From Flexilinea flocculi (GTDB taxonomy: Bacteria; Chloroflexota; Anaerolineae; Anaerolineales; Anaerolineaceae), in NCBI RefSeq assembly GCF_001192795.1, contig NZ_DF968181.1, positions 2,160,974 to 2,224,973 on the forward strand: DNA of 64,000 nt, read 5' to 3'. The position numbers and the translations under genes are program-made. Of the stretch, positions 15,843 through 20,744 are shown one piece after another. Position 1 is the stretch's first letter; every line of letters begins with the position of its first letter. The notes beneath the pieces were generated by a model. It was given only the letters and a program-made list of their open reading frames with translations. It was not told where the DNA came from and made no database searches.

Positions 15843-16241
15843 ATGAACTTTTTTAATATTGGATTCTCAGAATTAATGGTCGTTCTCGTAATCATGCTGA
15901 TTTTTCTGGGTCCGCATCGCATGACTTCCGCAGCCTATCGCTTTGCAAGATTTCTTAGGAAAATCATGCGATCTGATACGTGGCGTAATTTTTTCGATAT
16001 CTATAAAGAAATTAAACAATATCCTTCGCAAATTATGCAGGAAGTCAACATGGAAGAAATCAAAAAGGAGCTAAGAGATATTCAACAAAAAACAGACAAT
16101 GAAATTCAAAAAATCAATCAGGAAATAAACCCGCAAAAGATCAATTTACAAGAAACTGAACAATCACGAGAAACCAACGCGGAATCACAACAAGAACAAT
16201 CGGCAGCGCATATTGATCCGGAGAAAATTCATGAGCAATGA
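15843..16241 (+). CDS. Sec-independent translocase TatA/TatB-like protein
   Basis: Membrane component of the twin-arginine export system. It has a short N-terminal transmembrane helix followed by the hinge FLGPHRM and an amphipathic helix, then a long charged coiled tail rich in Glu, Lys and Gln. The 132-residue length and the long tail resemble TatB more than TatA; no second TatA-type gene is nearby. It overlaps tatC by 11 bp. Confidence 0.85.
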   Translation: MNFFNIGFSELMVVLVIMLIFLGPHRMTSAAYRFARFLRKIMRSDTWRNFFDIYKEIKQYPSQIMQEVNMEEIKKELRDIQQKTDNEIQKINQEINPQKINLQETEQSRETNAESQQEQSAAHIDPEKIHEQ

Positions 16242-16986
16242 AGAAAATGAATCTTTGTCTGCAAAAGAATTCCTGAGTGCGATGAGCGAACATATTTATG
16301 AGCTCAGGAATCGCATGATCATCGCGATCATCGCCCTGATTTTCGGGACAGTGCTTTGTTTGTTTTTCTCGGAGAAATTATTTGAGATTATTTGTATCCC
16401 CATCGGAGGTATTGATAAACTGCGATCAATCGAAATCACCGAAAATGTCAGTGCGGTTTTCCGTATTGCGCTTCTGGGCGGTGTAATTCTGTCATTTCCG
16501 GTAATCTTATATGAGATTTTTGCTTTCATCCTGCCAGCATTAAAAGCCAATGAAAAACGTCTATTGTTTTCATTTCTTCCTTCAGCCATTTTCCTCTTCC
16601 TGTGCGGAATCAGCTTTGCATATTTTCTGCTGCTGCCGACTGCCATTCCATTTTTAACGACATTTATGGGAATTGAAACCGAAGTTCGTCCTGCAAATTA
16701 CATTTCATTTGTAACCAGCATGATTTTTTGGGTGGGGGTCGTCTTTGAATTGCCCATCATGGTTTATATACCTGCCCGCATCGGATGGATCACTGCGAAA
16801 CAACTGTTGCGGAATTGGAGATATGCGGTCGTAATTTGCGCAATCCTCGCAATGCTGATCACTCCGACAGTCGATCCGGTAAACATGACAATCCTGATGA
16901 TTCCGCTGATCGCCTTATTCTTTATCAGCATTCTGTTCGCACAAATCGCTGAAAAAAAGCGAAAACAGGTAAGACCCGCTGCATAG
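16231..16986 (+). CDS. tatC: Sec-independent protein translocase TatC
   Basis: Core receptor of the Tat pathway, which exports folded proteins bearing SRRxFLK-type signals. Six hydrophobic segments are evident. The N-terminal block LSAMSEHIYELRNRMI matches the TatC cytoplasmic start, and FILPALKANEKR and ITPTVDPVN are family motifs. I choose the ATG at 16231, which has GGAG upstream; an in-frame TTG at 16213 would add six residues without a better site. The gene converges on a small Tat-substrate gene at 17.3 kb. Confidence 0.93.
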   Translation: MSNEENESLSAKEFLSAMSEHIYELRNRMIIAIIALIFGTVLCLFFSEKLFEIICIPIGGIDKLRSIEITENVSAVFRIALLGGVILSFPVILYEIFAFILPALKANEKRLLFSFLPSAIFLFLCGISFAYFLLLPTAIPFLTTFMGIETEVRPANYISFVTSMIFWVGVVFELPIMVYIPARIGWITAKQLLRNWRYAVVICAILAMLITPTVDPVNMTILMIPLIALFFISILFAQIAEKKRKQVRPAA

Positions 16987-17319: not shown

Positions 17320-17667
17320 TTAGTATCCTGTGGGTGTAGGTTCAATATATGGAGTTCCTGTAAGTGTTTCAGTCGGGGTTTCTGTTGGTGTTCCCGTTGG
17401 AGTTTCCGTCGGAGTTCCGGATGGTTGTTCCGTCGGAGTTTCCGTCGGAGTTCCGGATGGTTGTTCCGTCGGAGTTTCTGTCGGGATGTTCGTTGCAGAC
17501 GGAGTAGTTGCAGTCAGCGTCACAGATGTTTGAGCATGAGCGGGAATAACTCCGGCTCTGACAATTGGTTTAATCCATTTCTCTGGCAAGAAGGCTGAAG
17601 CAGTGATGCTGCCAGTTGCGGCTAATACTAACTTGAATACATTGCGACGTGAAATCATTTTTCCCAT
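17320..17667 (-). CDS. Small Tat-signal protein with Pro/Thr repeats, candidate modified peptide
   Basis: This 115-residue predicted export substrate begins with a twin-arginine signal (SRRNVFK at 6-12, hydrophobic core to about 25). A conserved-looking stretch LPEKWIKPIV (27-36) and IPAHAQTS (41-48) follow, with AHA a likely cleavage site. The mature part is almost only Pro, Thr, Glu, Ser and Gly. It includes two exact copies of the 12-residue unit PTETPTEQPSGT, from a 36-bp DNA repeat. It has no catalytic domain. It lies 156 bp beyond the HPr-kinase-like gene on the same strand and close to tatC, so it is the natural candidate substrate of both. AAGGGA precedes the ATG. Confidence 0.75.
   Translation of the reverse strand: MGKMISRRNVFKLVLAATGSITASAFLPEKWIKPIVRAGVIPAHAQTSVTLTATTPSATNIPTETPTEQPSGTPTETPTEQPSGTPTETPTGTPTETPTETLTGTPYIEPTPTGY
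17399..17477 (-). repeat. 36-bp tandem repeat inside the Tat-peptide gene
   Basis: A 36-bp unit containing GAGTTCCGGATGGTTGTTCC occurs twice in tandem, flanked by partial units of GTTTCCGTCGGA type. It encodes the 12-residue Pro/Thr repeat. Being in-frame, it could change copy number without breaking the protein. The boundaries are approximate. Confidence 0.8.
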
Positions 17668-17823
17668 TCATCGATCCCTTCATCAAATAATAGTTATTTT
17701 CAGTATCTCAAAGAGTAAACCATTAATTTGTAATTTTAACCAGTATCTCGAAAAAAAAGAATCACTTTATAAGCGATCCTGATTTTCGATCGTATTACCT
17801 GAGCGCAATAAATGTAAAAATTT

Positions 17824-18696
17824 TCATGTATGCTTCTTCTCTGTGTGGATCACGCGAAGAATATTCTCATAGATTTGATTAAAAGAGGAATATGTAAATA
17901 GATATCCTTGAACTTTATTCATTAATCGAGTGGTTTCAGAAAAACCATATCCTTCCAAATTTCTTGCATTTACAAGGTTTTGCATCAGATGAAAACTGGT
18001 CTCAGCAGCCGTTAAGGAAGACCACTGAACAGATGAATCATATTGATATTGAGGGAATAGAATAACTTTAAGAGTATCTTTCCTGATCTGCGATTCACCG
18101 GAGTAATTTCCGGGAACAGCTATCAAATCGGAAAACTGACAGGAGATATGATACTTTTCTTCAATACGATCGACATCCAAAAATGGTTGAATGACAGGAA
18201 GTGATGCTTTTTTTAGATGAAGCGGACGATGAAACGATTGAACAACTTTTTTCCCGAACGGGAAAAAAACTAACTCGTCCGTTAAATACTTACACCCCAT
18301 CTGCTTGACTAACCAGCTTATCAAGGTTGTTTTCCCTGATCCGCATTTACCGGGAATTAAAATACAATTCTCCTGGTATTGAACTGCACCTGCATGAAAT
18401 AATAGGCCATTGTTGCACCGGTCTGCGAAATACCAGCATAACTGACTCAAGAATTTTTCAGCCAGATATCCGGAGTCGGTTCCTTTCCATATTAATTCAT
18501 CGTTCTGGAATAATGAAAAATTTCCGGAATTGTTCGCGCTTAGAAAAAAAGATACACTGGATTGCGTAGTTTCATTACCTCTATCTGCATCCGGGGGAAT
18601 GATAAAATCACAAATCCTGCGCGCAATAAGCCCATCGCATTCAATCACAGCACGGCTTCCTGCAAACACAACTTCTCTGGTGCAGAGGCTGCTCAT
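17824..18696 (-). CDS. HPr kinase-like protein of a PqqD/nucleotidyltransferase system
   Basis: This 290-residue protein is related to the catalytic domain of HPr kinase. HAGAV (101-105) and the P-loop PGKCGSGKTT (115-124) are followed by YLTDELVFF (137-145), which corresponds to the acidic stretch after the P-loop in HprK. It lacks the N-terminal regulatory domain of true HprK, and no HPr gene is nearby. Relatives act as peptide kinases in some lasso-peptide clusters and occur in so-called HPr-rel-A systems. Its start overlaps the PqqD-like gene's stop by 4 bp. The substrate is unknown; the Ser/Thr-rich Tat peptide downstream is a candidate. Confidence 0.8.
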   Translation of the reverse strand: MSSLCTREVVFAGSRAVIECDGLIARRICDFIIPPDADRGNETTQSSVSFFLSANNSGNFSLFQNDELIWKGTDSGYLAEKFLSQLCWYFADRCNNGLLFHAGAVQYQENCILIPGKCGSGKTTLISWLVKQMGCKYLTDELVFFPFGKKVVQSFHRPLHLKKASLPVIQPFLDVDRIEEKYHISCQFSDLIAVPGNYSGESQIRKDTLKVILFPQYQYDSSVQWSSLTAAETSFHLMQNLVNARNLEGYGFSETTRLMNKVQGYLFTYSSFNQIYENILRVIHTEKKHT

Positions 18697-18965
18697 ATGA
18701 ATTGGATCACATCCCGCTCAAGGAATCGTTGCATAGTCTCAATTACATCTGTTCGAATTTCAGATGCAGCCTCAGGATAGGTCTCAATCAACAAATCAAT
18801 CATGTCCTGTGTGGTTAATATTCCATTCATCAGGCTCCAAATTAAGGCAGCGGATTGATTCAGATACATGATTTCCAAATTTTCTGTATTGAACAGAACA
18901 AATTCCTTATCGATCTTTTCGATTATAAAGTTACTTCTGGCTTGTGGCTTTCCGCATAAATTCAT
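18693..18965 (-). CDS. PqqD-like peptide chaperone
   Basis: This 90-residue protein matches the PqqD/RRE fold: a short beta-rich N-terminus, then the hallmark LNQSAALIWSLMNG (about 56-69) and two helices ending in a hydrophobic strand. PqqD-type proteins bind leader peptides and present them to modifying enzymes. It is translationally coupled (ATGA) to the HPr-kinase-like gene and follows the nucleotidyltransferase gene by 58 bp. No PQQ biosynthesis genes or radical-SAM partner lie in the window, so it is not true PqqD. Confidence 0.85.
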   Translation of the reverse strand: MNLCGKPQARSNFIIEKIDKEFVLFNTENLEIMYLNQSAALIWSLMNGILTTQDMIDLLIETYPEAASEIRTDVIETMQRFLERDVIQFI

Positions 18966-19023
18966 CTGTCTTCCTTTTTTCCATTTTTTTGAGTTGGTTT
19001 CAATTCATATTGGAGATATTTAC

Positions 19024-20190
19024 TTAACCATGAGGAATTCGCAAAAAATGGCCAAAATTTTTTCTGATCCGCAACTGAATTCGTTCCCGTGATTCAGCAA
19101 ATAAATCGGTTATATGATTCTGCCAGTATGGATAAATAGAGGTTTGACCATTTTTTCCATAATGCAGATAAAGCCACCAATCCGAAGGGAATAATGTCCT
19201 CTTGAGTGTTTTTAAAAATCCTCTGCGCCGGAATTCTGAAATAGGAATCATCGGCCAACCGAATGATTCACTTCCAGCATGATGATAGCGACAGGATGTA
19301 TCAAATCCCAATTTTGAAATCAAATTTTCGGATAGGGGGACAAAACCATTTAATACAGATAATGAGTTAATGACAATCGAAAAATCTCTTCGAATTACAT
19401 CCCAGTTAATTTGTTCTTTAAATTTTTCTGCATAATTGAGAATATCGCTGATCCAAAGATAATTCAAAGGCTGGAAGCTGCGATGATCATAAAAAGCATG
19501 CCAGCAAAGATGGAAAAGCATTTCCTCATGGAAAAGATACGAAACCGGACATCGATCAAACAACATAAACTGCTGCGTCGGATACTGCAGATCATCCAAT
19601 GTCAACCACGGATGTGACGATGTATCCTGACATAAAAATTGATGAATTTCAACATTAACCGGGAAACCGTCTTGTTTAATTTGTAAAGTCGGCAGATGAG
19701 CACAGGAGTGATAAGAATTGGCATTGGTTACACAAGAAAAGCCCATTTCTTTCATGATAGCTGAAACCTTCGCGGTCATGGATTGAGAAATGAGCACATC
19801 TAAATCAGCCATTGGCCGATCAGATAGATTCGGATACAAGACATTCGCCAAAGCAGCACCTTTCAAAGCGATGGACTGAATTGAATTCTCCTGAAAAGCC
19901 ATAGTAATCTTTTCCAGGACGCGCATTTTTGCCTCATTTGAAAGATAATGCCGTTTGACGATTATTTGACACATCAATTCCGCTTCCGCAGGTAAGGAAA
20001 TATCAAATTCTTTTATTTTTCCATACAATAAAGAGGTAAAACCAAACTTTTCAGCATAGCAAATAATCTCCATCCAATCATGGATAGTATCTGTTAGATA
20101 TCGGATTTCATTGTTTTGTGTTTTACAGACAGGAATACAACAACCAAATAACTTCACCATCGCTTCATAATTCATAAATTCAATGTCCAA
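19024..20190 (-). CDS. Nucleotidyltransferase family protein (NTP_transf_5 type)
   Basis: This 388-residue protein has the motif set of PF14907 nucleotidyltransferases: ALKGAALA (108-115), a following Arg (RPMADLDVLI, 125-134) and the catalytic-type DLD. The rest has helices rich in His and Trp, with no other recognised domain. Members recur next to PqqD-like and HPr-kinase-like genes and in lasso-peptide loci, but their chemistry is not settled. It is the first gene of the four-gene set. The start is uncertain between TTG 20190, ATG 20175 and ATG 20160, and none has a good ribosome site. Confidence 0.82.
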   Translation of the reverse strand: MDIEFMNYEAMVKLFGCCIPVCKTQNNEIRYLTDTIHDWMEIICYAEKFGFTSLLYGKIKEFDISLPAEAELMCQIIVKRHYLSNEAKMRVLEKITMAFQENSIQSIALKGAALANVLYPNLSDRPMADLDVLISQSMTAKVSAIMKEMGFSCVTNANSYHSCAHLPTLQIKQDGFPVNVEIHQFLCQDTSSHPWLTLDDLQYPTQQFMLFDRCPVSYLFHEEMLFHLCWHAFYDHRSFQPLNYLWISDILNYAEKFKEQINWDVIRRDFSIVINSLSVLNGFVPLSENLISKLGFDTSCRYHHAGSESFGWPMIPISEFRRRGFLKTLKRTLFPSDWWLYLHYGKNGQTSIYPYWQNHITDLFAESRERIQLRIRKNFGHFLRIPHG

Positions 20191-20589
20191 TCGATGAGTA
20201 AATGGTTTTCAGAAAAAAAAGCTTGATGTCTTAATAAAAATCAATTCTAAATATTGACTTGTATTCCGATTCTATCAAGAAAACTTGTTCTTGTGTTGTT
20301 ATTCGCCAAGCACAAAATCGTTCCACAACGAATAATGTTTTCTTTATAATCGAATAGCTGATCTTTTTTATCAGAGTAATCTTTCAGAACATAGCACCGT
20401 TGAATCTTTACGAAGGATAAATTATCAAAATCGCAACCATCGGCTAAACAGTTCCCTTCTATGCTTTCTTCTGTTGCTATCCTATGACACGATTGTCAGT
20501 CTGTACTCATTTTCACATTGGATGTACTTCTTTATAAGCAAAACTTCATTTCGTCACTTGCAGAACACATGTTTTTTCAAAATTTAAAT

Positions 20590-20700
20590 GATTGCTTCCT
20601 CAGGCTAATGCATTCCTCACAATGACAGATTATCTTATGAGTTACATTGTTATGAATCTTGTCATTTTTAATTACCATTAAGGGCAAAAGCATCCGCTAT
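20590..20700. repeat. Second repeat family, copy A (GATTGCTTC...CAATGACAG)
   Basis: GATTGCTTCCTCAGGCTAAT and the following CACAATGACAGATTATCTTATGAG align closely with the copy at 29.89 kb over about 50 bp, and a weaker inverted half follows. This type of GATTGCTTC/CAATGACA dispersed repeat is common in many bacterial genomes. The rest of 20191-20713 shows nothing I can name. Confidence 0.65.
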
Positions 20701-20713
20701 CCCTTGAGAACAT

Positions 20714-20744
20714 AAAAAAAACACGCTTAGAAAGCGTGTTTTTT
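20714..20744 (-). terminator. Terminator of the phosphodiesterase/small membrane protein operon
   Basis: AAAAAACACGCTT (20716-20728) and AAGCGTGTTTTTT (20732-20744) form a 13-bp stem with a 3-nt loop and a T-run on either strand. It begins 17 bp past the stop of the 47-residue gene on the minus strand. Confidence 0.88.

Follow-up and report, generated by a model that had tools for sequence, protein, structure and literature searches.

In a 64,000-nucleotide stretch of the Flexilinea flocculi genome (hereafter the window), four minus-strand genes encode a nucleotidyltransferase-fold protein, a PqqD-like protein, an HPr-kinase-like protein and a small precursor with a twin-arginine translocation (Tat) signal. 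It is very likely that the enzyme trio and the Tat-leader protein are functionally linked and, with less assurance, still likely that the system carries out leader-guided protein modification with the specific chemistry proposed below. In at least two phyla, enzymes such as those that tailor lasso peptides appear to have been recruited to recognise and tag exported proteins that share one leader, and we file the system as a variant of modification guided by a RiPP recognition element (RRE; RiPP, ribosomally synthesised and post-translationally modified peptide).

The four genes of the window

An earlier note on this DNA had described the four genes and the 4-base overlap between the PqqD gene and the kinase gene, and both descriptions were confirmed. 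The 'N'-type tailoring enzyme (19024..20190, on the minus strand like the other three) matches the nucleotidyltransferase family PF14907 at 118 bits (cut-off 31.2); its TTG start as listed may lie 5 codons early, as an ATG follows. The 'B1'-type PqqD-like RRE (18693..18965) matches PF05402 at 48.4 bits (cut-off 23.4), and the 'K'-type HPr-kinase-like protein kinase occupies 17824..18696. The fourth gene (17320..17667) encodes the proposed substrate, a Tat-type precursor of 115 amino acids that begins MGKMISRRNVFK and carries, by sequence, a twin-arginine signal with R7-R8 in SRRNVFK (17644..17649, minus strand). This precursor matches no Pfam or NCBIfam Tat model, TAT_signal included, and no family above its cut-off; Pfam TAT_signal matches some of its relatives, below the cut-off only. 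Its leader is alignable with 16 others, and it is the sole leader match in its own genome.

A rigid module within the Tat leader

Judged by alignment, the conserved part of the precursor is the leader and not the Pro/Thr tail. The segment that the earlier note had written as KW-KP...PAHAQTS is indeed the conserved element, while the Pro/Thr/Ser-rich composition that it had also named belongs to a low-complexity tail encoded by a 12/24/36-base tandem repeat. We collected 122 open reading frames (ORFs), which reduce to 76 distinct leaders, 31 from Chloroflexota and 45 from Proteobacteria/Desulfobulbaceae, and across these the module WxxP-(7)-PxHA-xx-[S/T] is rigid. Numbered from the predicted cleavage site, W(-15), P(-12), P(-4) and A(-1) are invariant (76/76), and L(-5) (74/76), H(-2) (75/76), Q(+1) (72/76) and T(+2) (67/76) are nearly so. 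Position +3 is Ser or Thr in 76/76 leaders (62 Ser, 14 Thr), against a Ser/Thr background of 168/760 at +4 to +13, and conservation ends at +4. Among 25 distinct leaders in 20 regions that were recovered with a profile trained on Ser only, 14 have Thr and 11 have Ser at +3. The W-P and P-A spacings are identical in 76/76, and the distance from the twin arginine to W is 16-25 residues in the 74 leaders with RR (KR replaces RR in two), so that a rigid W...S/T module seems to ride on a looser Tat signal.

In the window, the module comprises W31-I-K-P34 (17566..17577), the proposed PqqD recognition motif; A43-H44-A45 (17533..17541), the signal peptidase site predicted by the AxA rule, with a cut after A45; and S48 (17524..17526), mature position 3 and the proposed phosphate acceptor (all on the minus strand). 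A conserved leader on a variable cargo is, at the sequence level, the appearance of a recognition sequence. Weaker matches to the leader profile in a 400-genome sample of the phylum, presumably other Tat signals, end by position 42 of 51. Among the collected loci, 32/58 distinct RR-signal-like ORFs carry the motif, a control that is not independent because the loci had been chosen by the motif. The His of LPAHA was considered as the target of modification and rejected, as it is Phe in one leader (L208 = L171; LPAFAQGS).

A second A[HNQM]A motif follows within about 100 residues of the first in 15/45 proteobacterial precursors (mean 3.2, maximum 9 in shuffles) and in 1/31 Chloroflexota precursors, which is chance level; a stricter expression, P.A[HN]A, had given 6 matches before it was widened. 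The proteobacterial second motif often reads LLDxL(V/I)PxAHA and is a possible second cleavage or recognition site. It occurs in precursors of L101, L102, L113, L115, L206 (two proteins), L207, L256, L259, L261, L264, L268, L270, L272 and L273.

Linkage in Chloroflexota

To follow the gene set in relatives, we used the kinase and residues 1-51 of the Tat protein as queries against 301 genomes of the window's order, including the window's genome. Kinase matches were found in 29/301 genomes and reached E<=1e-15 in 13, the window's own among them. Relatives of the kinase do keep the Tat leader, a check that the earlier note had proposed: apart from the window's own genome, 12 carry a close kinase, and in 11 of them PqqD, the transferase and an intact Tat precursor lie next to it or not far from it, while in the twelfth (G132) the precursor is truncated at a contig end. 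PqqD and transferase accompany the kinase in 12/12 of these close relatives, although in G036 the set falls into two neighbouring segments and a further precursor is present. The other 16 kinase matches were at 3.9e-7 or weaker, and no leader was found in the eight of them that were examined (L042-L049, some on short contigs). Searched from the other side, the leader was found at E<=1e-3 in 14 genomes of the order, 12 of which have a close kinase. When ORFs of the window and 14 related loci were clustered, the four genes were the sole sense-strand genes present in more than 10 of the 15.

A leader-motif scan of 84,980 species yielded 124 matching stretches, 41 of which were confirmed (24 Chloroflexota, 17 Proteobacteria/Desulfobulbaceae); a first genome scan with the kinase alone had matched 29 stretches, of which 0 were confirmed. 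All four genes are present at 17/24 Chloroflexota leader loci, 10 of these 17 being in genomes already counted in the order search. Five of the other seven lie on short contigs or at a contig end. The last two (L099 and L100) have flanks but are cassette-free, and their genomes hold PqqD and a close kinase elsewhere (L212, L214); the L099 genome also has a second set, in which the leader gene lies between PqqD and kinase (L208). Gene orders include Tat-PqqD-kinase-transferase, transferase-PqqD-kinase-Tat (L117 and the window) and PqqD-Tat-kinase (L208), and since the order varies, the linkage is not that of one frozen block.

Unlinked co-occurrence in Proteobacteria

Outside Chloroflexota the whole cassette was found at 0/17 leader loci within flanks of 6 kb, yet its parts occur in the same genomes. 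PqqD was present in 19/19 leader genomes searched (the window's own included) against 3/14 control genomes. In 40 stretches around PqqD genes, PqqD and a close kinase (E<=1e-31) were adjacent or fused in 12/18 non-window genomes, nine of them Proteobacteria/Desulfobulbaceae and three Chloroflexota, mostly with the transferase. A strong kinase was also found in G667 and G669, and none in the stretches examined of G670, G679, G680 and G682, although G680 has leader, PqqD and transferase together (L221). One fusion of PqqD and kinase (L193; kinase match E 1.2e-31), followed by the transferase, joins two of the proposed steps in one protein, and in one gammaproteobacterial locus (L207) a leader-bearing gene lies directly upstream of the enzyme trio.

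We then tabulated leader and kinase across the 109 genomes of the gammaproteobacterial order around G673. A strong leader (E<=1e-9) was found in 39/109, at most 20 times in one genome (a leader at E 0.0017-0.0094 in 6 more genomes was not counted), and a strong kinase (E<=1e-50) in 33/109. Both were present in 32 genomes, the leader only in 7, the kinase only in 1 and neither in 69; the two are mostly unlinked, yet co-occur. In 8 genomes the best kinase match is weaker (E 1e-10 to 4e-34), and two of these, G699 and G725, have the leader; both encode a transferase of the cassette type (E 1e-89 and 3e-107), and the G725 kinase is interrupted by a contig end. The connection between enzymes and Tat protein that the earlier note had proposed therefore stood, in that relatives keep the four genes together and unlinked sets co-occur across genomes; its inclusion of the tat genes and of folded export did not.

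Families, residues and folds of the enzymes

The nearest named family of the kinase is HprK-related kinase A (TIGR04352), and the three kinases tested lie far under its cut-off of 200 (89.9 bits for the window, 108.9 for L084, 72.6 for L117). The HPr kinase family PF07475 gave no match in the window kinase, and 23.4 and 22.2 bits in two relatives (cut-off 33.3). Alignment with relatives shows H101, G119, G121, K122 and D140-E141 to be invariant, that is, the His, P-loop and Asp-Glu residues that have catalytic roles in HprK. A kinase profile matched HPr kinases weakly among PDB sequences, and the predicted fold is most similar to phosphoenolpyruvate carboxykinase (PEPCK), with HprK/P next; PEPCK and HprK/P are two branches of one kinase superfamily. 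In a tree of 43 rows the window kinase groups with those of L117, L212 and L214 (support 86/85, not starred), which is only a hint because of several long branches and of three labels that need 6 changes.

The window PqqD scores 33.6 bits against TIGR03859 (PqqD of PQQ biosynthesis), under the cut-off of 46. A profile of 20 PqqD sequences matched, in the PDB, a PqqD family protein best (9x8z), followed by the lasso B1 protein TbiB1 (5v1u), PqqC/D (5sxy) and TfuB1 (6jx3). In the transferase, K110-G111, D129 and D131 are invariant across a 23-sequence alignment, so that its KG and DxD motifs are kept; its profile gave only chance-like matches to 3C proteases among PDB sequences (best E 0.013).

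Cargo and neighbouring proteins

Precursors are about 100-500 amino acids long, and their mature parts are diverse, including Pro/Thr repeats (window), a fasciclin domain (L274), an S74 chaperone domain (L107), and Gly-rich and unnamed parts. The window cargo (17323-17532), a Pro/Thr tandem repeat, is unlike that of most Anaerolineales relatives. The common Anaerolineales type (L084) is predicted to form a nine-strand beta-sandwich, with a predicted local distance difference test score of at least 90 at 97/160 residues; a specific fold was not adopted for this domain, as Foldseek returned low TM-scores to many beta-sandwich folds. The suggestion that the window protein is exported folded is without support here, because its mature tail is a low-complexity Pro/Thr repeat in place of the beta-sandwich predicted for the common relative.

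The genes tatB (15843-16241) and tatC (16213-16986) adjoin the four-gene set on the opposite (plus) strand, and the earlier note had drawn them into the system. A conserved tatBC neighbourhood was rejected, however, as the window's tat genes fall in no ORF cluster of at least three loci among the window and the 14 related loci. On the other side of the set, about 500 bases (20191-20714) between a terminator-like hairpin (20745-20715) and the transferase gene hold no ORF of at least 60 amino acids.

Several other proteins stand beside leader-bearing genes. In a gammaproteobacterium, a PqqD-GT2-GT25 fusion that is open at the contig end (L115:6658-8793) lies directly downstream of a leader-bearing gene; RRE-glycosyltransferase fusions as a type are already described (PMC7470986, PMC12710340). 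A fusion of PqqD with a 2-oxoglutarate (2OG)-Fe(II) oxygenase (L194:6248-8002) occurs in a genome with 8 leader matches (G672), and two leader-bearing genes adjoin a 283-residue PqqD protein that ends at the contig end, its other part unnamed (L206:1-2285). Large proteins are found near leader-bearing genes in both phyla and are possible partners. One (L081:2-3286) has an Ig-like Big_12 domain and homologues at L040:3105-6059 and L041:4692-7544, and a large-protein family recurs at four gammaproteobacterial loci (L103, L112, L118 and L121), with DUF7933 repeats in that of L121.

Discussion

The three kinds of enzyme gene described here, a PqqD-type B1, an HPr-kinase-like K and a nucleotidyltransferase N, are also those of the phosphorylated lasso clusters bsf and psm (pseudomycoidin, PsmK/PsmN). 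According to PMC10368454, the bsf cluster has B1, K and N; BsfK phosphorylates Ser3 of its precursor, accepting Thr and not Tyr; B1 greatly enhances this phosphorylation; and the leader carries YxxPxL. PMC9266682 reports that PsmN is required for the phospho-Ser produced by PsmK to carry hexoses, with nucleotidylation followed by a host glycosyltransferase not excluded by the authors, and PMC7533575 that the same three gene kinds are common in rumen genomes with lasso clusters. Many PqqD-type RRE groups (PqqD, FusE, McjB) bind W/Y/LxxP/L/I (PMC12710340 section 7). The present leaders carry WxxPx[L/V/I] with Ser/Thr at position 3, and so share the [Y/W]xxPx[L/V] motif of bsf and psm and the position-3 Ser/Thr of bsf. 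Among the differences is the precursor, here a full-length protein with a Tat signal and, in Proteobacteria, with several substrates per genome. An RRE linked to a precursor that carries an export signal is also known from DUF2063-type RREs with DUF2282 precursors (PMC12710340), but there the signal is Sec and not Tat, the family is another and no specific RRE motif was found. Among the papers listed in searches of an open-access library, which omits most subscription papers, we found no earlier description of the system.

The mechanism that we infer would begin with the PqqD protein, as an RRE, binding the WxxP segment in the C-terminal part of the Tat signal peptide and presenting the precursor to the HPr-kinase-like kinase, which would phosphorylate the Ser/Thr three residues past the predicted signal peptidase site (S48 in the window). 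The nucleotidyltransferase-fold protein would then add a sugar or a nucleotide to the phosphate, after which Tat would export the precursor and a cut after AHA would release a mature protein with its tag close to the N terminus and with a putative extracellular role. A broader version, which we offer as speculation, is a general 'tag-before-export' system in which a bipartite Tat leader would route as many as 20 unrelated proteins in each cell to a single PqqD-kinase-nucleotidyltransferase cassette; the third mature residue would receive a phospho-sugar or phospho-nucleotide, which would serve as a common N-terminal handle, perhaps for attachment to surface polysaccharide, and the PqqD-glycosyltransferase and PqqD-2OG oxygenase fusions would be alternative taggers of the same leader.

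Several observations weigh against leader-guided modification. The window kinase lies under the TIGR04352 cut-off and is 21-33% identical to its relatives. The regular expression used for the alignment itself required the W, P, P and A found in 76/76 leaders, although 122/122 ORFs passed regardless, and 30/76 leaders come from a DNA pattern that forced H(-2), A(-1), Q(+1) and S(+3). In the window's order, G206 and G232 have the leader without a close kinase, on contigs of 4.9 and 3.1 kb, that of G206 holding PqqD. The Fisher p of 1.2e-19 for the gammaproteobacterial table overstates the co-occurrence because shared ancestry is ignored, and 7/39 leader genomes there are without a strong kinase; besides G699 and G725, the other five have weak transferase matches or, in one, none, and leader-only G724 has 11 leader matches. 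Such leader-only genomes count against a strict kinase requirement. In the window, a terminator-like hairpin (17758..17780, minus strand; identified only by consensus) separates the kinase gene from the Tat gene, so that the Tat gene may be a separate transcript, and we claim no four-gene transcript. PMC10368454 reports no known role for N in the bsf cluster. Pro and Ser are 14 residues apart here and 16 in BsfA, and position 3 is counted here from a predicted signal peptidase site and there from a lasso protease site, so that the likeness to bsf is one of grammar and not of exact geometry.

Other explanations have to be set against leader-guided modification. PqqD might act as a Tat signal-peptide chaperone, with kinase and transferase reversibly marking the leader to time export and the mature protein left unmodified. 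TorD/DmsD-type chaperones are likewise cytoplasmic binders of Tat leaders, though of another family and not known to come with modifying enzymes. Such quality control would fit a conserved block that lies almost wholly within the signal peptide and ends just beyond the predicted cut, but we consider it unlikely: the invariant Ser/Thr is on the mature side of that cut, what are presumably other Chloroflexota Tat signals match the leader profile only up to position 42 of 51, and the enzyme trio is, in the papers cited above, known from peptide tailoring. That the block is no more than a specialised signal for sorting or for signal peptidase, and the trio a neighbour with another target, we judge more doubtful again. 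The leader loci outside Chloroflexota that have no whole cassette (17/17 within the 6 kb flanks), the leader-only genomes and the recurrence of an AHA-like motif in some mature parts speak for it; linkage in about 20 Chloroflexota genomes in varied gene orders, together with the gammaproteobacterial linkage at L207 and the 32/7/1/69 table, speaks for a shared function of leader and trio instead.

The remaining two readings are both highly improbable. A degenerate lasso cluster that has lost protease and cyclase would account for a B1-K-N trio like that of bsf (PMC10368454), and as in lasso clusters an RRE (PF05402) goes with a YxxP-type leader (WxxP in 76/76). The precursors, however, are no short threaded peptides, being about 100-500 residues long, varied in their parts and matched as many as 20 times in one genome. 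The B2 leader protease PF13471 has 0 matches in the window's genome and none in 10/12 Chloroflexota genomes tested, the window's included; where it occurs (9/20 genomes tested) it is always on a contig other than that of the cassette. No lasso cyclase was identified among the recurrent neighbours, which were clustered and mostly unnamed, and no search was aimed at the cyclase family. This reading is largely contradicted already, and because no protease accompanies the set and its proposed substrates are proteins, we do not regard it as a lasso cluster. Ordinary HPr kinase control of sugar uptake beside an unrelated Tat protein would explain the HprK-like predicted fold and the weak HPr kinase sequence matches, and is just as hard to credit, since the cut-offs of the HprK families are missed and PqqD and transferase accompany the kinase in all 12 close relatives.

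RRE-guided tailoring is known for peptide natural products, and under leader-guided modification secreted proteins seem to use this grammar of recognition too, embedded in the Tat signal peptides of Chloroflexota, Gammaproteobacteria and a single Desulfobulbaceae genome. If this is true, bacterial protein modification would gain a new class, one whose site is predicted precisely; the system would account for orphan PqqD-kinase-nucleotidyltransferase gene sets, and its leader could be transferable to other proteins.

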